A DNA stretch of 28,052 bases from a virus, in the IMG/VR virus record IMGVR_UViG_3300037264_007788, positions 1-28,052 of that record; one strand, 5' to 3'. A program made the position numbers and the translations under genes. Shown here one piece after another: positions 3,669-18,340 of the stretch; positions within the stretch are counted from its first letter, which is position 1, and every line of letters starts with the position of its first letter. The notes under the pieces were generated by a model that ran no database searches, was not told the DNA's origin, and saw only the letters and a list, made by a program, of their open reading frames with translations.

Positions 3669-6008
3669 TTACCTCCCAGACGGGATGAGGTCGGGGTGGC
3701 GCGCGAGGAAGCCCTGCGGCGCGCGGCCGGTGAGGCGCTCGGCGCGGGGCTGTTCGACGCGCGTGATCGCCCGGTTGATGAGCGAGTCGGTGACTTCGAC
3801 GTCGGGGAACTGCTTCTGTACTTTCACAAGGCCCGCCATGAAGGCGGGCCAGTTGCGCGACGTCGTGACGGTGTTGTGGTAGAGGACGGAGACGGCGCGG
3901 GACGCGTCGCCGAGCTCTTCGTGGTAACTGTGGAGCGCCTCGGCGAAGGCCTGCGTCGTCTTCACGGCGGTGGGTTCGTCGAAGCCGAGCCAGTGGGCGA
4001 TCGCGTTCGGCGGGGTGGAGGGGACGACTTGTTCGCCGTACCGAGTCCGGCGCGTCCCCTCGCCGAGCTCTTGACCGAGGCGGATCGTCGAACGGAGGCC
4101 GAGTGGGAGCGAGACCGGGCCGGTGTCGTAGATGTCGCGGCCGGAGAAGGCGACCGGGGAGACCTTATTGAAGACCTGATCGAACAGGCGCGAGGGGTCG
4201 TGGCCGACGCGCGCGATGTCGGCGCCGAGCTGGAAGACCGGGCCCAAGTGTGGGAAGAAGCCGTGGAGCACTTTGCGGAGGCCAAAGCCGACCTTGCCGA
4301 GGACGTCGTAGATCGGGATGCGCTCCGGGTCGAGGCCGGTATGCTTGGCGAACATCTCATCGAGTGGCAGGCCGGTGAGGAAGGCGGTCCCGAGGAGGGT
4401 GCGGGTAAAGGGCGACCAGTCACCGCCGGTGAAGCGCTTCATCTGGTCCCAGACGAGCTCGGCGCGCTGCATCTTCTTCGAGGAGAACTGGAAGGCGAGC
4501 TTCATCGGGGTCGAGCGGAGGAGGCCCGGCATATCGAGCGGCGTCTGGCGCGGCACGGTGTAGCGCGTCAGGCGGTTGGCGTATTCGATCGCGGCCTGTT
4601 CGGGCGTCATGCCGCGGGCGAGGAGGTCACGGACCGGGGCGAGCGTCTCGCCCTTCGCGAGGGCCTTCTGGTAGCCGCCGATCCAGGCGGTGTACTGGTT
4701 GCCGAGGTCGACCTTCTGGTAGGCTTTGAAGGCCCATTCATTCAGGCCACGGAGGGCGCCTTTGACGCCGCGCTGGGACGCCGGAAGGAAATCGGAGAAG
4801 AGCTCGACGTCGGGGATGCGTTCGCGGACGTTGCCGATCTCACGCGCCATCTGACGGAGCGCGCGGGAGGTGGCGTCGGGCGAGAGCGTGTGAAAGAAGC
4901 CGCGCTCCGTCCACGGGTTGCCGATCTCGGCCCAGATCGACATCATGTCGGCGACGAAGTGCTTCTTGATCGGGGACGGGTTGAAGCCGATGTCCCAGAA
5001 CGCGATCGTGTAGTAGGTGGAGCGGAAGGCGCGCTCGATCCCGTTCGGGCCTGGGTTGACGCGACCGCCGGTCAAGGTGCGCGCCCACGTCTCGAACGGG
5101 GCCCAGGTCGCTTGGAGGAGCTTGTCCATCTGGGTCGGCTTCCGGAGCATGCCGTGTTCGATGCGGCTCTTGAGCTCGGCTTTGAGGTTCGGCGGGAGGT
5201 GCTCGGCGAGGACGGAGACCTGGCGGAGCGCGGGCTCGAGGTGATGTTGGCGGTAGACGGCGCGGGCGTAGGTGCGGGCGACGTCGTAGAAGTCCTTGCT
5301 GTAGACGGGGAAGCCCTTGCGCATTTGTTCGAAGGCGTTGAAGACGTGGCGCGGGATCGTGCCGTTGTCGGTCAGATCGCGCATGTACTGCGGCGTGCCG
5401 CCCATGACGTCGAGGGCCTGCGCGAGGGGCACGCCTTCGCGGGTCGAGATCGCGTGGATGGCACGGATACGGAACTGGTCGGCGGCGGAGAGGGTCTCGC
5501 GGCCAGCGGTGCCGGCGAGCACGGCTTCCATTTGGGGACGGTTCATCGGCTCGACGAGGTGGGTGAAGTAGCGCTCGGTGCGGCCGTCAGGGCCGAGGCC
5601 CATCAGGAGGCCGGATTCGCGGCGGAATGAATCCCACCAGTCGTGGACGCGGCGTTGGGCCGGGTTGAGCGAGGCGACGGGGAACTGGCCTTCGGCGGCC
5701 AGAATGGCCTGTTCGAGGGCCGGATTGCCGGGGCCGAGGCCGGTCGACTTCGCAAGGGTGTTGAGTTGCGTCTCGACGCCTTCGACGGCGCGCATGTTGG
5801 CTTCGTAGGCCGAGTCGAGGAGGCGCGGAATCTCGGGTTCGTAGCGTTCGAGATAGCGGCGCACGCCGGAGAGGTTGCGGCCGACGATGCCGATGTCGGG
5901 GCGGGACTGGAAGTCGAGCGGCGCGCGGCGGATCGGGAGGCCGACCTTGCTGAGGAGCGAGGCGGCGCCTTCGGCGACGGCGGGGCCGACCGGCCAGAGG
6001 GGCGGCAT
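3669..6008 (-). CDS. large internal (ejection-type) virion protein, 779 aa
   Basis: The second longest gene in the window starts two bases after the previous stop (TAAcgATG). It is mostly helical, with no signal peptide or obvious catalytic motif. A central segment near residues 335-360 (FWDIGFNPSPIKKHFVADMM) and a later one (GLLRSTPMKLAFQFSSKKMQ) resemble the C-terminal large polyvalent-protein-type domains seen in phage internal proteins; I offer this as a resemblance only. Its place at the end of the internal-protein block, after the tail hub, fits a protein ejected with DNA. A transglycosylase or protease activity is not visible. Confidence 0.8.
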   Translation of the reverse strand: MPPLWPVGPAVAEGAASLLSKVGLPIRRAPLDFQSRPDIGIVGRNLSGVRRYLERYEPEIPRLLDSAYEANMRAVEGVETQLNTLAKSTGLGPGNPALEQAILAAEGQFPVASLNPAQRRVHDWWDSFRRESGLLMGLGPDGRTERYFTHLVEPMNRPQMEAVLAGTAGRETLSAADQFRIRAIHAISTREGVPLAQALDVMGGTPQYMRDLTDNGTIPRHVFNAFEQMRKGFPVYSKDFYDVARTYARAVYRQHHLEPALRQVSVLAEHLPPNLKAELKSRIEHGMLRKPTQMDKLLQATWAPFETWARTLTGGRVNPGPNGIERAFRSTYYTIAFWDIGFNPSPIKKHFVADMMSIWAEIGNPWTERGFFHTLSPDATSRALRQMAREIGNVRERIPDVELFSDFLPASQRGVKGALRGLNEWAFKAYQKVDLGNQYTAWIGGYQKALAKGETLAPVRDLLARGMTPEQAAIEYANRLTRYTVPRQTPLDMPGLLRSTPMKLAFQFSSKKMQRAELVWDQMKRFTGGDWSPFTRTLLGTAFLTGLPLDEMFAKHTGLDPERIPIYDVLGKVGFGLRKVLHGFFPHLGPVFQLGADIARVGHDPSRLFDQVFNKVSPVAFSGRDIYDTGPVSLPLGLRSTIRLGQELGEGTRRTRYGEQVVPSTPPNAIAHWLGFDEPTAVKTTQAFAEALHSYHEELGDASRAVSVLYHNTVTTSRNWPAFMAGLVKVQKQFPDVEVTDSLINRAITRVEQPRAERLTGRAPQGFLARHPDLIPSGR

Positions 6009-6010
6009 CG

Positions 6011-7027
6011 TTACAGCCCGGCGGCCATGCGGCCGCCGACGGCGGCGTCACGCATGAGCTCGAAGATTTGCTGCATCACGGCGTCGCGCTCGGGGCCCTC
6101 GGGGGTGCGGTTGTAGGCGTTCGAGAGCTGGACGAAGCGGGCGGTGTCGGGGCCTTGGAGGCGGCCGCGGTTGGCCTGGAGGTAGGCGTTGAAGTCCTCG
6201 AGGCGGGCAGGCGGTTCGGGCCCGACGACGCCGGCGGGCGGGCGGCCTGCGGCGGCCCCTTCCCACGGGGCTCGACGCTCGGCGGGCTCCGTGGCGATCG
6301 GCGGCCGGACTGGGTCGGGCATCGGGACGGGGCGCGGGCCGGGCGTCGGTCCGGGGCGCGGCATCGGCGGCTGCACGGTCAGTGGACCTTGGACGCCGCG
6401 CTCCGGCATGGCAAAGCCGGGAGTCACGCGGCCGCCCATCGGGAAGCCGGAGCCGAAGACGGAGGGGCCGGCCTCTTGTGGGAGCGCAAGCGGCCCGCGA
6501 GGGCGCGCGACCGCGCCGGCACCTTGAGCTTCGGCGATGCCGGCGGCGACGTCACGGCTCAGGCCGCGAGCGCCCCCGACAGCGCCGCGGACGCCGCGCA
6601 GGAGATCGCCGATGCCGGTCCGCCACGGCGGCGCGACTTCGGCCATGTTCCCGAGGCTGAACGCGGGCGAGCCGCCTGGTGTCACGATACCGCCAACGGG
6701 GCGTCGGATGCCGAGGGCGTCGCCGGCCGTGTCAGCGAGTTCGCCGCGAAGCGCGAACGGCGAGAAGGCGAGGCCGAGGGCGCCACCGAGCGGGTTCGCC
6801 GCCCAGCCGGCGGTGGTCGTCGGGATACCGGCGCGCTCGGCGAGGCGGCCGCCGAAGCCTTTGGGCGCGCGGATGTCGCCGTAGGGGCTCGGACCGGCCG
6901 GCGCGGCGACACCAGGCTGCGCGCCAGGTTGGCCGCCGATGTTTGGGCGAATCGTGACAGTCTGCGGCGTGCCGGAGCCCCGCACGGCGGCGGTGATGGC
7001 TTCGAGGTCTTCGGCGCGGAGGGCCAT
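6011..7027 (-). CDS. Gly/Pro-rich probable internal virion protein (338 aa)
   Basis: The start at 7027 shares an A with the upstream stop (TAATG). The first 15 residues are helical (MALRAEDLEAITAAV). A long Gly/Ala/Pro-rich middle is followed by a Pro-rich stretch near residues 225-290 and a short helical C-terminal domain (EDFNAYLQANRGRLQ onward). The composition suggests a flexible linker-type virion protein rather than an enzyme. It is coupled to the genes on both sides in the internal virion block. No family is recognised. Confidence 0.75.
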   Translation of the reverse strand: MALRAEDLEAITAAVRGSGTPQTVTIRPNIGGQPGAQPGVAAPAGPSPYGDIRAPKGFGGRLAERAGIPTTTAGWAANPLGGALGLAFSPFALRGELADTAGDALGIRRPVGGIVTPGGSPAFSLGNMAEVAPPWRTGIGDLLRGVRGAVGGARGLSRDVAAGIAEAQGAGAVARPRGPLALPQEAGPSVFGSGFPMGGRVTPGFAMPERGVQGPLTVQPPMPRPGPTPGPRPVPMPDPVRPPIATEPAERRAPWEGAAAGRPPAGVVGPEPPARLEDFNAYLQANRGRLQGPDTARFVQLSNAYNRTPEGPERDAVMQQIFELMRDAAVGGRMAAGL

Positions 7028-8061
7028 TATTCGCTCGGCCTCGGATAGCTCGGCATGAAGGCGGGGCCGGCGGCGCCTTCCGGCTCGCCGATTGTCGTCC
7101 GCTTGTTCGTGATCTTCGGCATGCGCGTGATCGCGCGCGGCTCCCACTGACCAGTCGCCTTGTTGAAGAACGGCTGGACGTCATAGTGACGCTTACGCAT
7201 CTCCAAGCGGATGATCTCGGCGCGGCTGATCGTGTCGGTTTTCCCGTTCGCGGACGTGACGGTCCACGTATCGATGGCGGGGTTGTCCCAGCCGGGCCAG
7301 GTCTGCGCGATGAGGCCGGGGACGGCCTCGACGCCGCCGACGGTCGTGCCGAACCAGCCAGCACCGGCGGGTTTCCCGACGAGGCTCGTGAAGATTTCCT
7401 GCACGGTCTTTTCTTCCTGGAAGCCCTCGAGCGGCCCGCCGGGGCGCTCTTCGACGACGGTGCGCGGCTGCGAGCCGGCGGCGGGGCGGTTCGCCAGGCT
7501 CTGCCAGTAGCGCGCCTGCGCGGCGTCGTGTTCGGCTTTGCGCCACGATTCCATCATGGTGCCAAGCGGGCCGGAGAACTCGGGGTATTTGATGGCAAAG
7601 CGCATGAGGCCGACTTTGTCGGTCGGCGCGATCGCGTTGCTCTCAGCGATGGCGGCGGCGGTCCGCTCAGGAGACACCTGACGCTCAGTCTTCGTGACCC
7701 CGTCCGGGGTCGTCACGCGCACGAAGCCGTTGCCGAGGTCTTCCATCTTCGGGCGCGGCAGCGGGACTTCGCCGAGGTAGTCGCCGGTTGGACTGACCTT
7801 GGCGATGCCGTACGGGTGCTGGAACATCTGCGGCTGCGTGAGCTGCTGGCGCTCGTGCTCGAGGCGTTGCTGCGCGCCCCGGAGGCCGAGCTGCTCGCGC
7901 TGGAGGTGGAGCGGAAAGAGCTGGCGCTTCATGTTGGCTTCGTCGATGCGGGCGCGCAGTTCGGGGCCCATGACGGCGCCTTGCACGGCGCCGCCGAGCG
8001 TCGAGCCCAGCGCGTCGCCGAGCGCGCCCAGGCCCATCGCGAGACCCGCGAGGTTCGCCAT
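7027..8061 (-). CDS. probable internal virion protein with coiled coil (344 aa)
   Basis: Translation starts at an ATG in a TAATG overlap; an in-frame upstream extension exists but lies inside the preceding gene. The N-terminus is small-residue rich and helical (LAGLAMGLGALGDALGS). It is followed by a Gln/Glu-rich coiled coil near residues 50-80 (REQLGLRGAQQRLEHERQQL), then a mixed region. Gly/Ala helices plus a coiled coil are typical of phage internal or ejection proteins. Function is assigned by position and composition only. Confidence 0.75.
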   Translation of the reverse strand: MANLAGLAMGLGALGDALGSTLGGAVQGAVMGPELRARIDEANMKRQLFPLHLQREQLGLRGAQQRLEHERQQLTQPQMFQHPYGIAKVSPTGDYLGEVPLPRPKMEDLGNGFVRVTTPDGVTKTERQVSPERTAAAIAESNAIAPTDKVGLMRFAIKYPEFSGPLGTMMESWRKAEHDAAQARYWQSLANRPAAGSQPRTVVEERPGGPLEGFQEEKTVQEIFTSLVGKPAGAGWFGTTVGGVEAVPGLIAQTWPGWDNPAIDTWTVTSANGKTDTISRAEIIRLEMRKRHYDVQPFFNKATGQWEPRAITRMPKITNKRTTIGEPEGAAGPAFMPSYPRPSE

Positions 8062-8788: not shown

Positions 8789-9268
8789 CTACGCGTAGAC
8801 CTGCCGCCGCTCGTCCTGCGCGCCCGGCTGGAAGGAGTAGCCGTACGGGTTCTGGAGCTGCATATTCGTCATGGTGTCGAAGAAGTCGGGCGACGCGCCG
8901 GAGAGGCCCTGCGCCTGGAAGTCGGCGCGCGCGAGACCGCGGCGCGGGTACGGGCCGGCGAGCGGCGGCGCGTTCTGGCCGAACGAGGCGGGCGCGCCCT
9001 GACCGGCGCCACCGCCGCCGAAGGACTCGTACATGCTGGCGCCGGCGGTGCCGAGCGAGCCGAGCGCTTGGAGCGCGGCCGTCGGGTTCTGGCCGACGAG
9101 GGACCCGATGCCGCCGAGCGCGTCGGCGCCACCGGAGCCGATCGAGCTGAGGAGCTGCATGAGCCAGTTGCCCCCGCTCCCGACGTTCGACGCCGCGCCC
9201 CCGCCAGCGGCGTCGAAGCCACCGAAGAGGTTACTGAGGATGTCGAGGTCGCCGAAGCCAAAGTCCAT
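8789..9268 (-). CDS. Gly-rich probable internal virion protein (159 aa)
   Basis: The ATG at 9268 overlaps the preceding stop (TAATG). The protein is very Gly/Ala-rich, with an N-terminal segment that could insert in a membrane or form a fusion-like helix (LGSLGTAGASMYESF and similar). Its C-terminal region is rich in Pro, Tyr and Gln. Small Gly/Ala-rich proteins in this position are often ejected with DNA. That role is inferred, and no family is recognised. Confidence 0.7.
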   Translation of the reverse strand: MDFGFGDLDILSNLFGGFDAAGGGAASNVGSGGNWLMQLLSSIGSGGADALGGIGSLVGQNPTAALQALGSLGTAGASMYESFGGGGAGQGAPASFGQNAPPLAGPYPRRGLARADFQAQGLSGASPDFFDTMTNMQLQNPYGYSFQPGAQDERRQVYA

Positions 9269-10458
9269 TACGCCCCCGTGCGCGGCGTGGTCGCGCCGCT
9301 GCTACGCGTATCATAGTCGAAGTAGGCGTGCGCGCGCGCGAGTAAATCGGCGAGGGACTGCATCGGCGCGAGGCTGTGGAACGGCTGGGTGCCGGGCGTG
9401 CGCGTGAGGGTCTTGCCGTGCAGCTCGCGGCCGGTCGCGTCGCGGAGGCGCTCGGCGAGGGGACCGCGCGGGATGACGAACTCGCCCTCTTGGAGGGTCG
9501 CGGGGACGTCGCGCTTCCCTTTGCCGCGCGGGCCGGCGATGTAGCCGCCCTTGTGCGGAGCTTGGCCACCAGGACCGCCGGCCGGACCGTCACCCGCGGT
9601 GCCTGGCGCGCCGCCGGCGGTGCCGCCACCCGCAGGGCCGGTGCCGCCGGGTCCAGGCGTCCCGCCCTCGCCAAATTCGTTCGGGCCAACGGTGGGATCG
9701 CTAACGGTGGGATCGCTGGGGTCAACGCCGCTCCGATTCCCAGCCGGTGCGAACGACGTGCTCGATAGGCCGAGGCCACTATACCCGTGCGTCACGGAGA
9801 GTGGGCCACGGCCGATCGCCGAGGAGATCGCCTGCGGGGCGAGCGTCGTCGGCTGGGTGAGATCAATGGCCTCGTCAACGAAGGACGTAAAGTGCGGGTT
9901 GTTGAGGAGCGCCATGACCTGGCCGACCGTCAGGTTGCTCATGCCGGGGACGGTGGCGGCGCTGGCGCCGTACTTGCTTCCCTGGTTGATCGCCATGTTG
10001 ATGCCGCTCACGATCGGGTTCGAGAGCCCGGTCCCGAGGGCCAAGCTCGCGAGCGTCGACATCGCGTTCGTCGCGAGGTTCGGGCCGAATCCGAAGGCGG
10101 TGCCGGCAAACGGGGCACCAACGACACCGAATTGCGCTTGGCCCATCGTCTGCCCGAGCGAGGAGGCTGGGCCGAAGCCGGTGTCTGCGGTCTGTCCAAT
10201 ACCCGATCCGCCGCCGCCCCACATATCGTCGGGGCCGGGGCCAGTGCTGGGGTCCGGAGCAAGCCCAGCCGGGGCCGCGGGCGCGCCTGCGGCGTGGCCG
10301 CCCAGGTACGCGCGGGCGGCGGTCGTCGCGTCGCCTTCGCCGACGTCTGGCAGCATGCGACTGAGATAGCGGCCGAGGAGGTCGGGGTTCATGTTGCGGC
10401 CCATCGCGGACTGGAGCGTCTGGGCCAGCATGGTGATCGTCGGGAGGTCGAGGACCAT
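9268..10458 (-). CDS. virion protein with collagen-like linker and VPATLQEGEFVIPR motif (396 aa)
   Basis: I place the start at the ATG 10458, nine bases after AAGGG; a GTG 24 bases upstream would lie in the ribosome-binding region. The order is a helical N-terminus (1-55), Gly/Ala-rich segments (80-180), a helical patch near 178-200, a collagen-like Gly-Pro-rich linker (262-301), then DVPATLQEGEFVIPR at 317-331. Variants of that motif recur near the C-terminus of phage tape-measure and internal proteins. A 15-bp tandem duplication encodes SDPTV twice. Likely an internal or tail-length-like component; the exact role is unknown. Confidence 0.75.
   Translation of the reverse strand: MVLDLPTITMLAQTLQSAMGRNMNPDLLGRYLSRMLPDVGEGDATTAARAYLGGHAAGAPAAPAGLAPDPSTGPGPDDMWGGGGSGIGQTADTGFGPASSLGQTMGQAQFGVVGAPFAGTAFGFGPNLATNAMSTLASLALGTGLSNPIVSGINMAINQGSKYGASAATVPGMSNLTVGQVMALLNNPHFTSFVDEAIDLTQPTTLAPQAISSAIGRGPLSVTHGYSGLGLSSTSFAPAGNRSGVDPSDPTVSDPTVGPNEFGEGGTPGPGGTGPAGGGTAGGAPGTAGDGPAGGPGGQAPHKGGYIAGPRGKGKRDVPATLQEGEFVIPRGPLAERLRDATGRELHGKTLTRTPGTQPFHSLAPMQSLADLLARAHAYFDYDTRSSGATTPRTGA
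9688..9717. repeat. 15-bp tandem duplication inside a virion gene
   Basis: The unit aacggtgggatcgct occurs twice in direct succession. On the coding minus strand it adds a second SDPTV pentapeptide just before the Gly/Pro-rich linker. It keeps the frame, so it looks like a linker-length variation. Confidence 0.85.
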
Positions 10459-10514
10459 CGGCTTAGCCCTTTTCCTTAGCACATGCGGTACAAGTACATG
10501 AATTCATTAGCTTT
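10459..10514. promoter_or_regulatory. AT-rich 56-bp gap with two adjacent palindromes
   Basis: This is one of the longer spaces in an otherwise packed gene array and is clearly more AT-rich than its surroundings. It contains gtacaagtac (10488-10497) directly followed by atgaattcat (10498-10507), both inverted repeats. The downstream ribosome binding site (AAGGAAAAGGG on the minus strand) is also here. I see no good -35/-10 pair, and no stem followed by a T-run, so a regulatory role is only suggested. Confidence 0.35.
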
Positions 10515-12668: not shown

Positions 12669-13018
12669 TATTCGTCAATCCACGGACAGGCGCGGATGAA
12701 ACTGCCCGGCTGATAGGTCTTGCGGAACCAGGTCCGCTCGTCCACACCCATCGCGACGACGCAGGAGGTGCGGTCCAGCGACAGGCGTATCCTCTCCTGA
12801 TTCTTGAGAATGAGCGCATGCGCGGCGTCTGCGTGCCCGTTCACGCGTCTGAGTTCGTCGGCGATCAGCGTGTTCTCTCTGGTGATCGTCTGCTGGATTA
12901 GGTAGCCCGCGTAGAAGTTGGAGGCCGCGAGCACTACGACTGCGATGACCATGATAACGGTCGTCCCACGAGCCGTGAGGGTCTTGGCCGCCCAGTTCGC
13001 TTCGAGTTCGTCAGCCAT
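12668..13018 (-). CDS. single-pass membrane protein between neck genes (116 aa)
   Basis: The product starts at the ATG 13018 in a TGATG overlap and ends in a TAATG overlap. A hydrophobic helix at about residues 19-41 (VIMVIAVVVLAASNFYAGYL) follows a short charged N-terminus. A helical region and a C-terminal part with two cysteines come after. The topology would suit a holin- or spanin-like protein, but no endolysin is nearby and the gene lies between adaptor and hub. It could equally be a virion or morphogenesis factor. Function unknown. Confidence 0.75.
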   Translation of the reverse strand: MADELEANWAAKTLTARGTTVIMVIAVVVLAASNFYAGYLIQQTITRENTLIADELRRVNGHADAAHALILKNQERIRLSLDRTSCVVAMGVDERTWFRKTYQPGSFIRACPWIDE

Positions 13019-13938
13019 CACGGCACCACGACGCGGCCGTACCAGAGGACCGGGCCGTCGGTGGCCGAGCGGACCTGGAGCCCCTGGCGCAAGCCGGGCA
13101 CGGGGTTCTTCGTCTCGAGCGCGCGCATCGCCTCGGTAAACTCCTGGCGGAGCCGGGACGCCGTCCCGTGGTCCTGTTCGGCTTCGCGGACCTTCGAGAG
13201 GACGTAGACCTCGATGAGCGGCGTCAGCCCCACGGGGATTTCGACGAGGTCGGTGGCGCTCGTGAGCGGCGTCGGGAGACGGGAAACTTTCATCATGACG
13301 TTCCGTTCCGTGGCGACGGCGCCGCTGAGGTGCGAGACGGCGGTCGTGCCCGCTTGGCCGCGCAGGATGGCGGCGAGGCCGACCGGCGCGGTCGTCACGG
13401 TCCGGTAGGCGATGATCTCGCCGTCGATGTCGAGGTAGCCGTACGGGCGGAAGCCAGCGGTCGACGTGAGCGAGATGACGACCGCCGCCGCGTCGATCGA
13501 CGTGGCGAGGGTTGTCACGGCGCCGGTCCGATCGCACGCCGGGTACAGCGCGAGGCGCGGCGTCTGATGAATCGAGTGCGGGCCGAAGAAGTAGGAGCGC
13601 GAGGTGATCTTCGTCAAGCCGAGATTGCTGTACTCCGGCGCGCGGACACAGACGAAGTTGTCGTACCAGAGCTGCTCGACGGACAGCGTCGTCGAGGGGA
13701 GGACATAGAGGTCCATGCCCTGCGTGGACTGGAGGGCGTACCAGTCCTGGATGATCGGGGCCGTGGTCGCCATGATGCGGAGGCCGTCGTTCATCCACCG
13801 GAGGAGAGACGCCAACGTGAAGGCCGTGCCGTCCTGGGACGGGTCCGTGACCTGGTCCGGGATCATGTCGCGGATCGACGAGAGGACGGAGGCGGCGGTC
13901 GTCCCGGCGACGGGCGTGCCAATGGCGGGCGTGGGCAT
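13018..13938 (-). CDS. head-tail adaptor-like protein (306 aa)
   Basis: The 306-residue product starts in a TGATG overlap. The first 90 residues are helical (SSIRDMIPDQ, LASLLRWMNDGLRIMATTAP), a pattern seen in phage neck adaptor proteins of the P22 gp4-like type. A beta-rich insertion (about 130-210) and a helical C-terminus (EVYVLSKVREAEQDHGTASR) follow. Position between the capsid region and the tail hub supports a connector that docks on the portal. This is inference from fold pattern and order rather than a family-defining motif. Confidence 0.7.
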   Translation of the reverse strand: MPTPAIGTPVAGTTAASVLSSIRDMIPDQVTDPSQDGTAFTLASLLRWMNDGLRIMATTAPIIQDWYALQSTQGMDLYVLPSTTLSVEQLWYDNFVCVRAPEYSNLGLTKITSRSYFFGPHSIHQTPRLALYPACDRTGAVTTLATSIDAAAVVISLTSTAGFRPYGYLDIDGEIIAYRTVTTAPVGLAAILRGQAGTTAVSHLSGAVATERNVMMKVSRLPTPLTSATDLVEIPVGLTPLIEVYVLSKVREAEQDHGTASRLRQEFTEAMRALETKNPVPGLRQGLQVRSATDGPVLWYGRVVVP

Positions 13939-14522
13939 CAGGCCTGCTTCCGCCAGGTGGGCGTCGTGAGATCGTACGTGAGGAGAAAGGTCTGGTTCGC
14001 CGCCATCGCGACGGAGGCGCCGGTGCCGGTGAGGATGCGGTTCGCGGCGAGCGAGGCGGCGTCGGCGTTCGTGACCGTGATCGTCTGCGCGCCGACGTTC
14101 AAGAGCAGAATCTCAGTCCCGTCGAAGAGCGGGGCGGCGATGCCGGTCAGGTTGACGGGCGCGGTCGCGCTGATGCGCCAGCGGCGGGCCTGGAGGCCAT
14201 TCGACGGGGCATAGTCGTTCGTGTTCGCGGCGAGCGCCGCCGGCGTGATAAAACCGGCCGCATCCCACAAGAGGATGTCGGTCGTCGCGGCGGCGGTGAA
14301 GGTGTAGCCGCCTTTGACGATCGTGACGTCGTAGCGGCCGTTGCCGGCGTAGAACTGGTACGTGCCGTCGACGGCGCCCACGAACGGGTTCGCGAGCGCG
14401 GTGTACGTCGCGGTCGAGAAGATGGAGGCGACCGTCGCCGTCCCAGCCAGCTTGACCGTGATCGACGGGTTTGCGAGGGCGTTCCCCGCGGTGTCCTGGG
14501 CGACGCCGGCGACGCGCTGCAT
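13938..14522 (-). CDS. beta-rich appendage/fibre-like protein (194 aa)
   Basis: The ATG at 14522 lies two bases after the previous stop (TAAccATG). The N-terminal half looks like a carboxypeptidase-regulatory or Ig-like beta domain (AGNALANPSITVKLAGT, then GTYQFYAGNGRYDVTIVKGG), as found in phage fibre and appendage proteins. A second beta-rich half follows. No cysteine or catalytic motif is evident. It closes the enzyme cassette, so it might be the modified or partner protein, but that is speculation. Confidence 0.75.
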   Translation of the reverse strand: MQRVAGVAQDTAGNALANPSITVKLAGTATVASIFSTATYTALANPFVGAVDGTYQFYAGNGRYDVTIVKGGYTFTAAATTDILLWDAAGFITPAALAANTNDYAPSNGLQARRWRISATAPVNLTGIAAPLFDGTEILLLNVGAQTITVTNADAASLAANRILTGTGASVAMAANQTFLLTYDLTTPTWRKQA

Positions 14523-14524
14523 GG

Positions 14525-15277
14525 TTAGGTGCTCACGGGCCGGAGGCCCGCGAGGGCCCCGCCGCGCTGCTCGCGCTCGTGGACGGAGGCCCAGTAGGCC
14601 TGCTCGTCGGCCGCGCCTTTCCAGCGGGCGAGCTCCTCCGAGGCCGCGGCGATCTTGGCGGCGATGCCGGCTTTCCGGTCGGCGATGACGGTCGCCCACT
14701 GATCGAACGGCATCGGGTGGTAGCCGTAGCGCCAGCCACTGAGGCCGTACGGCTTCAAGAGGGCGGACTGCTCCGGGATCGTGACCTTGATGCCGGCGCC
14801 CTTGGCGTAGTAGAGGAGCGCTTCGCAGGAGGGTTTCTGGTAGCCGTACTCGCTCTCGTGGATCATGTCGACGCCCCAGACGCCGATCTCCTCGGCGCCT
14901 TCGGCGATGGCGTCGGCGATCATGTAGGCGATCGAGGAGGCGAAGTATTCGCCGAACTGGGCGACGCGCTCGTCGATCGGGTAGCGGACGGAGGACGGGT
15001 AGGCCGGGTGGCGCTCGAGCATGACGAGCGGGATCGGGCAGGCGCGCATCCACGCGGCGTAGTCTGTGCCGGCGACCTGATCGGCGAGCGGGTCGGCGTG
15101 CATCTCGTACCAGCGCGTCGCGCGCGGGAGGAAGCGGTAGAGCTGGTTCTCGCCCCAGATCGCCCAGGACGGGTCGTGGTACGGGGCCAGGTCCATCGTC
15201 GACTCGGAGAAGCCGAGGATCGCGATTTTCTTCCGCGGCGGCGACGGGTCGTCGAACTGGATGCGGTACTCTTTCAT
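14525..15277 (-). CDS. Rossmann-like putative glycosyltransferase (DUF115/GT42-like), 250 aa
   Basis: The start ATG overlaps the methyltransferase stop as ATGA, so the two are translationally coupled. After a short N-terminus comes a Rossmann-like first strand and loop, KIAILGFSEST (17-27), then WAIWGENQLY (38-47). A conserved-looking second half has SSIAYMIADAIAEGAEEIGV (114-133), GVDM (135-138) and EYGYQ (143-147). The helix followed by an EIGVWGVDM-type strand resembles DUF115/MptE-like and sialyltransferase-like proteins, so a nucleotide-sugar or other diphosphate ligand is plausible. No active site can be proved. It is an unusual gene in a head-assembly operon. Confidence 0.6.
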   Translation of the reverse strand: MKEYRIQFDDPSPPRKKIAILGFSESTMDLAPYHDPSWAIWGENQLYRFLPRATRWYEMHADPLADQVAGTDYAAWMRACPIPLVMLERHPAYPSSVRYPIDERVAQFGEYFASSIAYMIADAIAEGAEEIGVWGVDMIHESEYGYQKPSCEALLYYAKGAGIKVTIPEQSALLKPYGLSGWRYGYHPMPFDQWATVIADRKAGIAAKIAAASEELARWKGAADEQAYWASVHEREQRGGALAGLRPVST

Positions 15278-15915
15278 GCGGGCTCCAGGGTCAGGGTGCA
15301 CACGGCGTTCAGCCGGTCCACGGGCGGGTGGACGGGCAGCACGGACACGGTGGCGTCGCGGCCGAGGTCGCGACAGACCGTGTCGAGGGCCAGAATGTAG
15401 TCGTGGGTCCACTCGGGGTAGGCGAGCAGGGCGCGGCCGGCGCGGCGGTCCGGGGCCATCGGCTCGGCGAGCACGAGGGCCACGCGCGCCTCGGCGACGA
15501 GGCGCCGGAGGACGGCGGGAAGGTCGTCTGGCGCCACGTACGCGAGCGTGTAGCACGTCAGGATGACGTCCGGCTTGACGAGGAACGGGGCGTTCAGGTC
15601 GTCAAGGAGGTCGCCGTGCCAGAGGACGACCTGCGGGTCGTCGCGAAAGTACATCTTCCCCACCTCGATTGCAGCCGCGTGCACATCAGACCCCTGGCAC
15701 AGCGAAGACGGAAAGTGCTGCCGGATCAGGCGCAAGTTCGGGCCCACGTGGCAGCCAGGCTCGTACAGACGCGTCCAAGCGGGGAGCGCCCGAAGCGCCT
15801 GCACGATGACCTGGCGATGCCGCTGGCCCGTACTGGCCCAGTACGTCTCGCACCACGCGTCGTGGTCGACGCGGGGCGCAGCCCAGAACGCGGTCGCCTC
15901 CGCGGTGACAGCCAT
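15274..15915 (-). CDS. class I SAM-dependent methyltransferase (213 aa)
   Basis: The start is the ATG 15915, nine bases after the stop of the decoration-like gene; a longer in-frame extension would run through that gene. Motif I is EPGCHVGPNLRLI (52-64), the acidic SAM ribose contact is GSDVHA around D77, a GDLLDD element follows at 101-106, and VILTCYTLAYV (117-127) corresponds to motif IV. There is no NPPY or DPPY, so a DNA adenine target is unlikely. The closest type is small-molecule, protein or sugar methyltransferases. Coupling to the putative glycosyltransferase suggests modification of a glycan or capsid component (inference). Confidence 0.8.
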   Translation of the reverse strand: MAVTAEATAFWAAPRVDHDAWCETYWASTGQRHRQVIVQALRALPAWTRLYEPGCHVGPNLRLIRQHFPSSLCQGSDVHAAAIEVGKMYFRDDPQVVLWHGDLLDDLNAPFLVKPDVILTCYTLAYVAPDDLPAVLRRLVAEARVALVLAEPMAPDRRAGRALLAYPEWTHDYILALDTVCRDLGRDATVSVLPVHPPVDRLNAVCTLTLEPA

Positions 15916-15923
15916 CGCGCGCC

Positions 15924-16448
15924 CTAAGCGGCGTCGATGATAATATCCACCGCCGTCGAGGAGGCCACCGAGCCGAACGCCTGCGGCGTCACGAAGTTGA
16001 CGCGCGCGAACTGGCACCCAGCGACGAAGGGCACAGTGCCTTGCAGCGTGAACGAGTAGACGGCACCAGTCGCGGTGCCGGCCATGACCTTCGAGTCGAG
16101 GACGTAGATGTTCCCGACCGTCTGCGTGCCGGAGCCGGTGGAGGTCCCGGTGGCGAAGGCCGTCGAGGTTGCGGCTTCGAGCTGGATGATCGGCCCGATG
16201 CGGGCGCCGGTCGAGGTGGTGTCGGCGATCGTGGATTTGACGAAAACGACGGCGCGGAAGTTCTTGCGCGGGGCGCCGAAGTCCCCTTGCGAGGACGAGA
16301 CGGTCGCGGTCGCGGCCATCGTGGTGTCGACGAACTGCCACCGCGCGCCGGGCAGTTGCCCGGCCGTGGACGAGGACGTCGTCGGCGTGGTAACGAGACC
16401 GGCGAACTCCGTGACCTGCTGGACGTTGTTTAGAAGCTGCATCGCCAT
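15924..16448 (-). CDS. capsid decoration-like beta-rich protein (174 aa)
   Basis: The start ATG has AGGAGG eight bases upstream. The 174-residue product is rich in Thr, Ser, Ala and Val with a beta-strand rhythm, and contains one cysteine. It lies directly downstream of the major capsid gene, the usual place for a head decoration or stabilising protein. That placement plus composition is the basis of the call. It could alternatively be a minor capsid subunit. Confidence 0.7.
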   Translation of the reverse strand: MAMQLLNNVQQVTEFAGLVTTPTTSSSTAGQLPGARWQFVDTTMAATATVSSSQGDFGAPRKNFRAVVFVKSTIADTTSTGARIGPIIQLEAATSTAFATGTSTGSGTQTVGNIYVLDSKVMAGTATGAVYSFTLQGTVPFVAGCQFARVNFVTPQAFGSVASSTAVDIIIDAA

Positions 16449-16461
16449 TGGGGTCGGCCTC

Positions 16462-17448
16462 CTAGCCGTTCGTGATCGCGGTGAGCGTCTGGTTCATGCG
16501 GGGGTTGATGACCTTGAGGTTCATCGTCACCCAGATGAACGAGCTGAGCACGCGCTGGTTCGTCGGCCGGATGAACGGATCGACGATGAAGTAGTCGTCC
16601 TGGTGGAAGCAGGGGTACACGTACTTCGTGTTCAGGAAGGTCGCGGCCTGGGCCGTCGCGAACTGGTCGTGGAGCACGACGGCGTTGTTGAACATCAGGT
16701 GGCGCTTGAAGCCCATTCGGGTCGTCTCTTCGTCGCGGATGTAGCGGATGTTGCCGACGAGGAGGTTCCAGTAGGCGTTGAAGCCGAGCTGCGTCATGAT
16801 GATCGTGTCAACTTCCTCGTTGCCGAAGATCACGTCGCCGTAGGCGTTCTGCATGTCGGCGAGGATCAGGTTGCCGGTCGCCGTGCGCGTGCCGGCGTTG
16901 GTGCCGCCGGGCTTCCAGAAGGCGTTGGCGCCGACGGAGCGGTCGATCCCGGCGTAGGTGTTCGAGTTCGTCCCGACGGCCGCGACGAGGGAGTCGAGGT
17001 CGAGGGAGGTGTTCTGCGGCGCGGTGCCCCAGACGGCGCGGGAGAGCTTCTGGAGGAGCGAGCCCATCGCCGTCTCTTCCTTCGTCGAGATCAGGTCGAT
17101 GACGGCGCCGGGGCCGCGGTTCAGCAGGACGTCGGTGTAGGGCACGGTGATCGGCTGGTTGTAGAACTTCCACTGGAGCTCGGCCGGCTGCACGGAGTCG
17201 GTCGCCGTCGTGTCGAGAATCTGCGTGCCCCAGTAGGCGCCGCCGACGGTCTCTTCCTGGAAGACGACGGGCCAGACGAGGGCGGAGCCGCCCTGGAGCT
17301 TCTTGCCGAGGCGCGTGACGCGCCACCAGGTCGGGGACGGCTTGAAGATCGCGTCCGCGAGGATCGGCGCAAAGTATTTCTGCGAGATCGCGTTCGCGGT
17401 ATTCGTGAGGACAACGGGCGGCTGAGAGACGCTGACGCCGACGGCCAT
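16462..17448 (-). CDS. major capsid protein (328 aa)
   Basis: The ATG at 17448 has GGAG eight bases upstream. The 328-residue product has the expected size and mixed alpha/beta character of an HK97-fold capsid subunit. There is an N-terminal arm, a long middle helix (ISTKEETAMGSLLQKLSRAV, about 119-138), and a typical segment (EEVDTIIMTQLGFNAYWNLL) followed by strands to the C-terminus. It follows the coiled-coil scaffold and precedes a decoration-like gene. The call rests on position, size and general pattern. Confidence 0.85.
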   Translation of the reverse strand: MAVGVSVSQPPVVLTNTANAISQKYFAPILADAIFKPSPTWWRVTRLGKKLQGGSALVWPVVFQEETVGGAYWGTQILDTTATDSVQPAELQWKFYNQPITVPYTDVLLNRGPGAVIDLISTKEETAMGSLLQKLSRAVWGTAPQNTSLDLDSLVAAVGTNSNTYAGIDRSVGANAFWKPGGTNAGTRTATGNLILADMQNAYGDVIFGNEEVDTIIMTQLGFNAYWNLLVGNIRYIRDEETTRMGFKRHLMFNNAVVLHDQFATAQAATFLNTKYVYPCFHQDDYFIVDPFIRPTNQRVLSSFIWVTMNLKVINPRMNQTLTAITNG

Positions 17449-17482: not shown

Positions 17483-17496
17483 GGCGCGGGCGCGCC
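17483..17496. repeat. GC-rich inverted repeat right after the scaffold stop
   Basis: The sequence ggcgcg-gg-cgcgcc can form a six-pair stem in the 47-bp gap between scaffold and capsid. No T-run follows on the minus strand, so it does not look like an intrinsic terminator. It might shape mRNA stability between low- and high-abundance products. Confidence 0.4.
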
Positions 17497-18299
17497 TAGC
17501 TGCCGGGCAAGCCCTCCATAGTGGCGAGGATTTCGGGGTCCCGGCTGGCGGCCTCCCAGGCGTCGCCGAGCGACTTGGGAGCGTCCGGGGCGAGCGCCGG
17601 GGCCAAGCGCCGCTGCGGCAGTTGCGCCGGGGCGGCGAGTTCCTGTTTCGCTTGCGCGTAGGCTTTCTTGTGGGCGTCTTCGGCGGCTTTCTTCGTCGCG
17701 GCCTCGAGCTGCTGGTCGCGTGTGAGCTCGTTGAAGGCCAGATCGAGGCGCGGGATGCTGTGCTGCTTGGCGAAGGCGATGACGTCGTCGGCTTTGACGC
17801 CATATTCGTCCATGCGCGGCTTGAGCGTCGCGAGCGCGCGCTGGTGGAGATCGGTGTAGAACCACTGTTGCTGCTGCTTGAGCGCTTCGGCGGCCTGTTG
17901 CTGGCCGGCCTTGAGGGTCTCGAGCTCGGTCATGAGGGCCTGCTGCTTGGCGAGGAGGCGCTGGCTGACCGGGTCACGGGCCATGTAGGCTTCGACCTCG
18001 TCGATCGACGCGGCGGGGGCGCCGGCGGCGACGTTCTGGGTCCGCTGAACGACTTGTTCGGCCAGGCGGGCGAGTTCGGCTTCGGCGCCGGCCTTGGCCT
18101 GCTCGAACTGGGACTTCTCCTGCGCGAAGGCGTCGCGGTCACGGGCGAGGGCTTCGGTCTTGCGCGTGTAGTCCTGTTTCCGGAAGTAGCCCTGGTCGCG
18201 CAGGTCGCCGAGCGTGGTTTCGACACCGTCCGCCAGCGTGATCTTGCGATCGTCGGGGAAGCCCTTCTTGTCTTCGAGGATCTCAGCGAGTGAGGGCAC
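17496..18299 (-). CDS. scaffolding protein (267 aa)
   Basis: I choose the GTG at 18299, eight bases after GGAGG, over an upstream in-frame codon lying before that site. The 267-residue protein is highly charged and helical. Coiled-coil stretches cover about residues 45-88 (LARDRDAFAQEKSQFEQAKA) and 112-147, then a Lys-rich helix at 190-222. The C-terminus is short and Pro-rich. No cysteine is present. A coiled-coil protein of this length directly upstream of the capsid gene is the classical scaffold arrangement, where it directs procapsid assembly and then leaves. Confidence 0.85.
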   Translation of the reverse strand: MPSLAEILEDKKGFPDDRKITLADGVETTLGDLRDQGYFRKQDYTRKTEALARDRDAFAQEKSQFEQAKAGAEAELARLAEQVVQRTQNVAAGAPAASIDEVEAYMARDPVSQRLLAKQQALMTELETLKAGQQQAAEALKQQQQWFYTDLHQRALATLKPRMDEYGVKADDVIAFAKQHSIPRLDLAFNELTRDQQLEAATKKAAEDAHKKAYAQAKQELAAPAQLPQRRLAPALAPDAPKSLGDAWEAASRDPEILATMEGLPGS

Positions 18300-18325
18300 G
18301 GTTAGGCCTCCGGTGACAGCGCGGG

Positions 18326-18340
18326 GCACGCGGGGCGTGC
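18326..18340. repeat. inverted repeat upstream of the scaffold gene
   Basis: gcacgc-ggg-gcgtgc forms a six-pair stem with a three-base loop within the 67-bp gap before the scaffold start. Apart from this and the GGAGG site the gap holds nothing recognisable. There is no T-run, so terminator function is unsupported. Confidence 0.4.

Follow-up and report, generated by a model that had tools for sequence, protein, structure and literature searches.

The window, meaning the whole stretch of DNA that was analysed (28,052 nucleotides of virus record IMGVR_UViG_3300037264_007788), carries a methyltransferase gene and a gene for a 250-aa protein side by side on its minus strand. The pair lies in a head operon. 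In the order of transcription, the operon starts upstream with the terminase large subunit (phrog_2, 1.1e-22) and the portal (phrog_156, 2.8e-18) and continues with the scaffold, the major capsid protein, a 174-aa protein, the methyltransferase, the 250-aa protein, a 194-aa protein, and an SU10-type adaptor. From the scaffold onward, the features are:

17496–18329, minus strand: head scaffolding protein (phrog_3927, 1.3e-5)
16462–17448, minus strand: major capsid protein, candidate acceptor (phrog_9953, 1.5e-38)
15924–16448, minus strand: 174-aa small capsid-adjacent protein, candidate acceptor (position 3' of the capsid gene; Ser+Thr 24.7%)
15274–15915, minus strand: class I SAM-dependent methyltransferase, 213 aa (ATG start, TGA stop; motif I EPGCHVG, residues 52–58)
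15274–15277, minus strand: ATGA start/stop overlap of the pair (read directly in the sequence; kept in L002)
14525–15277, minus strand: predicted GT42/Maf/DUF115-like glycosyltransferase, 250 aa (AlphaFold2 pLDDT 88.6; Foldseek; VIA-align)
13938–14522, minus strand: 194-aa fibre-like protein, candidate acceptor, downstream (weak phage_tail_N and Phage_depo_C matches, E about 0.03)
13018–13938, minus strand: SU10-type head-tail adaptor (SU10_adaptor PF24175, 30.1 bits, cut-off 27)

The two genes are translationally coupled through the ATGA overlap. A preliminary description of the locus had reported an EPGCHVG methyltransferase coupled in this way to a Rossmann-type protein, and both the coordinates and the overlap were confirmed. 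The window is GC-rich and has many long spurious frames on both strands. ORF length is therefore poor evidence for genes here; both genes are considered real because L002, a viral contig of 17 kb with the operon order of the window, carries orthologues of the two in matching order and retains the ATGA overlap. Identity between the two phages is 92% for the capsid protein, 79% for the 174-aa protein, 72% for the transferase, 67% for the 194-aa protein, 66% for the adaptor, 58% for the scaffold, and 53% for the methyltransferase. The pair had also been placed between a decoration-like and an appendage-like gene. This layout holds; the term decoration reflects only the position of the 174-aa protein, which has no family match in Pfam or PHROG, and the term appendage reflects the weak tail-fibre matches of the 194-aa protein, which is conserved in both L002 and L079. 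Downstream of the head genes, the long minus-strand frames at 1–1917, 3669–6008, 6011–7147, and 9268–10482 have no PHROG match.

In L079, whose capsid protein shows 65% identity to that of the window, the scaffold, the capsid protein, and a 133-aa protein are followed directly by the homologue of the 194-aa protein and the adaptor. Neither the methyltransferase nor the transferase is present in this otherwise intact head operon, which makes the pair an accessory cassette. The 133-aa protein (L079 7000–7401) occupies the place of the 174-aa gene of the window. It was set aside as a homologue of the 174-aa protein, since the alignment score of 33 lies below the shuffle maximum of 42 and homology is not clear. 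The small capsid protein may thus vary or be exchanged together with the cassette as one unit, as far as this one case indicates.

The 250-aa protein belongs to a family without a named model in Pfam, PHROG, or NCBIfam. Searching viral contigs with a profile of three members detected 58 loci, and the family is very diverse, with a mean column identity of 23%. P32, D35, S37, W38, I40, A123, G135, E143, and Q147 are invariant over 46 divergent members. The AlphaFold2 model built from this 46-member alignment has a pLDDT of 88.6 and contains a long C-terminal helix (residues 191–237); a model made without the alignment (pLDDT 39) was set aside. Foldseek against the PDB gave the sialyltransferases CstII as the best matches (4.5e-5). 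With VIA-align, the top match was the flagellin glycosyltransferase Maf (5mu5, Z 11.6, 154 residues), and CstI/CstII (146–160 residues) and a Pasteurella GT42 enzyme gave Z of about 10; the DUF115 enzyme MjHPPK and thiamine pyrophosphokinase (TPK) reached Z 10.1 and 9.8, and the DUF115-fold matches were 5mu5 (Z 11.6) and 8sd5 (Z 10.1). The predicted structure clearly belongs to the GT42/Maf/DUF115 fold group, within which the fold of the model alone cannot tell transferases from pyrophosphokinases.

The earlier DUF115/GT42-like reading of this protein is thus borne out by the fold search and not by the sequence models. The Pfam matches of 32 members at E 0.05 include no GT42 family, and the 250-aa protein and 31 relatives gave no match to Pfam PF01973 (DUF115/MptE-like). 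The sole informative echo in a PDB sequence search was a GT42 enzyme over ...TSxxYMxAxAIxxGxxxIxxxGxD..., whose E of 0.92 is not significant alone. The 250-aa protein has a TSS-like stretch at 113–115 and GxD at 135–137. In the 46-member alignment, no invariant His stands at the expected GT42 place, and E143 and Q147 are invariant with Y144 in 41 of 46 members, as judged from the alignment only. One family member belongs to an isolated phage, Microcystis phage Mvi-Yong1342-1 (L003 11905–12708; PP496355.1 34781–35584). This protein, XAN61349.1, is 42% identical to the 250-aa protein and is annotated as a "type 11 methyltransferase"; its alignment with the GT42-like family covers most of the protein, which suggests that the annotation is wrong. 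A "sugar O-methyltransferase" (XAN61327.1) is encoded by this phage as well. Two copies of the transferase family per phage contig were seen in L069 (10371–11878) and L073 (2122–10182). A contig of an Anaerolineae MAG (L086 9777–11221) has the order capsid, small protein, transferase, with a methyltransferase and a second protein matching PF01973 (DUF115, 52.9 bits) slightly downstream.

A Pfam tally of the neighbours of the transferase flagged cytidylyltransferases. CTP_transf_3 (CMP-sugar synthetase) is found in 20 of the 51 records carrying the family and NeuB (sialic-type synthase) in 12 of them, versus 0/50 control phage contigs for each (Fisher test, 1.9e-7 and 2.4e-4), where the records are fragments that are not independent of one another and the controls are contigs of similar total length, free of the transferase family, that were picked by a terminase profile and represent one terminase lineage. 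After collapsing one clade of near relatives, the synthetase enrichment is 3.7e-5. The synthetases are similar to PDB entries for CMP-NeuAc synthetases and to the PseF model of NCBIfam. The donor genes lie 4–17 kb from the transferase in several records. Mapped onto the tree of the family, presence of the synthetase requires 9 changes, and well-supported branches force at least 7 of these; the linkage therefore recurs across the family and is not the habit of a single lineage. L050, the sister of the pair formed by the window and L002 (98/87), has both the synthetase and NeuB. No CMP-synthetase or NeuB was found in the window or L002, the window having no PF02348 or PF03102 match.

Two relatives illustrate how the transferase and the donor genes are arranged. 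The order in L065 is capsid, 131-aa protein, transferase, PseF-like synthetase, 93-aa protein, methyltransferase, NeuB, and head-tail connector, so that its donor module holds the same head-operon place as the pair in the window. In L066 (1137–9782), two tandem transferases are followed by PseB-, PseC-, WbuX-, and WbuZ-like genes, a CMP-sugar synthetase, a Pse methylase, and a NeuB-type synthase, which by their sequences appear to form a near-complete acetamidino-nonulosonate pathway. From this gene context, the probable donor of the transferase family is a CMP-linked nonulosonate (or Kdo); the context also separates the transferase from the pyrophosphokinase reading, which the fold cannot do. 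The added sugar is probably not the hexose that had been supposed, since genes for CMP-sugar synthetases and NeuB-type synthases accompany the family.

The 213-aa protein is assigned to the class I SAM methyltransferases by its Rossmann methyltransferase profile and motif I. Its Pfam Methyltransf_12 match (25.1 bits, 3e-5) lies below the cut-off of 30, and SAM methyltransferases in the PDB were matched at about 1e-4 with A2. The only NCBIfam match is TIGR03587, the pseudaminic acid biosynthesis-associated methylase (1.4e-6, 28.6 bits), which is also the best NCBIfam match of the L002 orthologue (4.9e-10, 39.9 bits). Since both scores are far below the cut-off of 112.05 bits, membership is not claimed, and the match of the window protein is confined to the Rossmann core. 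In hhalign, the window methyltransferase paired with phage Pse methylases at a probability of 85.9, versus 3.3 with other phage methyltransferases. TIGR03587-family methylases of relatives (L066, 113 bits, over the cut-off; L067, 105; L068, 205) sit among Pse/Leg (NulO) genes; the window methyltransferase does not lie in a nonulosonate biosynthesis cluster. Its affinity to the Pse methylases does not depend on the evidence from the transferase, and both suggest one class of sugar. No relative of the methyltransferase was found in 50,697 phage records, and L002 held the only one in the viral contigs. The methyltransferases within the donor clusters of relatives are of several kinds. A single methylase common to all donor clusters was rejected, because those of the L065 and L069 clusters are not close to the methyltransferase of the window.

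A major capsid gene lies 1–3 genes upstream of the transferase in 10/10 relatives scanned, covering five PHROG capsid families; the ten were picked for the capsid-like length of the upstream protein and are therefore no random sample. In L003, L011, and L060, the transferase adjoins the terminase and not the capsid gene. The preliminary description had stated that head operons normally lack such enzymes at this place, which is true of the 50 control contigs and not of the transferase family, whose usual place it is. Modification of a virion protein, one of the roles suggested there, appears to be favoured by the recurrent placement after capsid genes of unrelated families and by the empty site in L079. 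Action on phage nucleotides is unsupported by any linked gene, and a DNA- or nucleotide-modification role was dropped for this reason. The Ser+Thr content of the 174-aa protein is the highest among the seven operon proteins measured, which is a weak hint only.

We consider it marginally better than an even chance that the pair comprises a CMP-ulosonate-dependent transferase and a sugar methylase, which would modify the capsid protein, a decoration protein, or another virion protein of the same operon with a host-made donor. The 250-aa protein would use a CMP-activated donor and move its ulosonate, of the pseudaminic, legionaminic, or sialic type or possibly Kdo, onto Ser/Thr of its acceptor; the 174-aa protein next to the capsid gene and the major capsid protein itself are the likeliest acceptors. 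Methylation of this sugar by the coupled methyltransferase would come before or after transfer. Since donor-making genes are absent from the window, the CMP-sugar would come from the host, while related phages carry their own donor pathway. Maf enzymes O-glycosylate Ser/Thr of surface loops, need no sequon, and can use CMP-Neu5Ac and CMP-Kdo in place of a missing native donor (PMC11339370); a host donor is therefore plausible for a phage without the pathway. The proposal sharpens the O-methylated glycan of the preliminary description from a hexose to a nonulosonate. Counting against it are the nearly equal fold match to pyrophosphokinases, the GT42 catalytic histidine that was not located, the methylase score of 28.6 against 112 bits, the lack of CMP-synthetase and NeuB in the window and L002, the distance of the donor genes, the single-lineage controls, and the placement in L003, L011, and L060.

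The pair could instead act on glycans of the infected host, its surface sugars or others, for receptor masking or superinfection exclusion, and leave the virion unmodified. GT42 enzymes natively act on lipooligosaccharide, and surface modification encoded by phages is a known theme. However, the gene stands in the late head operon and not in a lysogeny or early module, across phages with unrelated capsid genes, and late expression fits virion modification better; we regard a host target as unlikely. A second alternative, that the 250-aa protein binds nucleotides like other enzymes of the wider fold group (pyrophosphokinase, MptE- or TPK-like) and acts on a small molecule, is improbable. The Z values of MjHPPK and TPK and the missing sequence-family assignment agree with such an enzyme, whereas the recurrent linkage to CMP-ulosonate genes, found in none of the 50 controls, and the general neighbour tallies, in which no pterin or thiamine linkage was seen, argue against it.

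The protein might also be catalytically dead and serve the head as a structural or chaperone part via its long C-terminal helix. The modelled helix, the position next to the capsid gene, and a GT42 general base that was not identified in the alignment are in line with this idea, which we nonetheless hold to be of low probability, because the nine invariant positions look like an active site, the family co-occurs with sugar-donor genes, and the protein is missing from the intact L079 operon. That the two genes form an unrelated accessory pair, with the methyltransferase acting independently on protein or small molecules, seems very improbable: a Methyltransf_12-type match is present in only 9/51 transferase records and the donor-cluster methyltransferases are diverse, but the ATGA coupling is retained in two phages and the methyltransferase has a specific affinity to the Pse methylase family.

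Modification of a virion protein with a CMP-derived ulosonate, our preferred reading, can be extended to the family, tentatively and at slightly less than an even chance. Sequence context and the predicted fold suggest that a large unnamed GT42/Maf-like family, whose genes lie just 3' of the one for the major capsid protein in phages with capsids of unrelated families, may modify capsid proteins or decoration proteins with nonulosonates taken from CMP-sugars, of the sialic, pseudaminic, or legionaminic type and in some cases methylated. Some of these phages would have the full donor pathway, and others, including this one, would have only the transferase and methylase and obtain the donor from the host. 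The findings suggest that in many phages the particle may carry sialic-acid-type sugars added by the phage's own enzymes. If so, a common head-operon gene of uncharacterised phages would mark a negatively charged, sialic-type capsid decoration, which would matter for the stability of the particles, their adsorption and immune recognition, and the question why phage genomes hold nonulosonate pathway genes. To our knowledge, phage virion glycosylation is known from few systems. No paper on nonulosonate glycosylation of phage virions was found in the open literature searched, which is no proof of absence.

Among known systems, TIGR03587 resembles the methyltransferase as its only NCBIfam match, with family members among the Pse/Leg genes of L066, L067, and L068; unlike them, the window protein matches over the Rossmann core only and far below the cut-off, and the window has no pathway genes. 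CstI/CstII of GT42 share the fold of the 250-aa protein (Foldseek 4.5e-5, VIA Z about 10), but at 17–18% identity, with the catalytic histidine not located in the 250-aa family and with a glycan as the GT42 acceptor. The nonulosonate synthase gene pseI is already on record as a phage-borne auxiliary gene in marine phages, whereas the part of that source available to us draws no link to a capsid-adjacent transferase or virion modification (PMC6359870). In the mycobacteriophages Che8, Corndog, and Myrna, the phages' own glycosyltransferases modify proteins of the capsid and the tail tube (Freeman et al. 2023, cited in PMC12363180). This resembles the proposed role in that phage glycosyltransferases act on virion proteins; no CMP-nonulosonate link is stated in the available part of that source (PMC12363180). 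The Maf flagellin glycosyltransferases (motility-associated factor, DUF115; 5mu5) differ from the 250-aa protein in their length of 632 aa, in sharing only 14% identity with it, in the PF01973 match that it lacks, and in being partnered with flagellin, where the 250-aa gene is partnered with a capsid gene. They nevertheless provide its best fold match (Z 11.6) and, like the role proposed here, O-glycosylate structural proteins with CMP-nonulosonates (PMC11339370).
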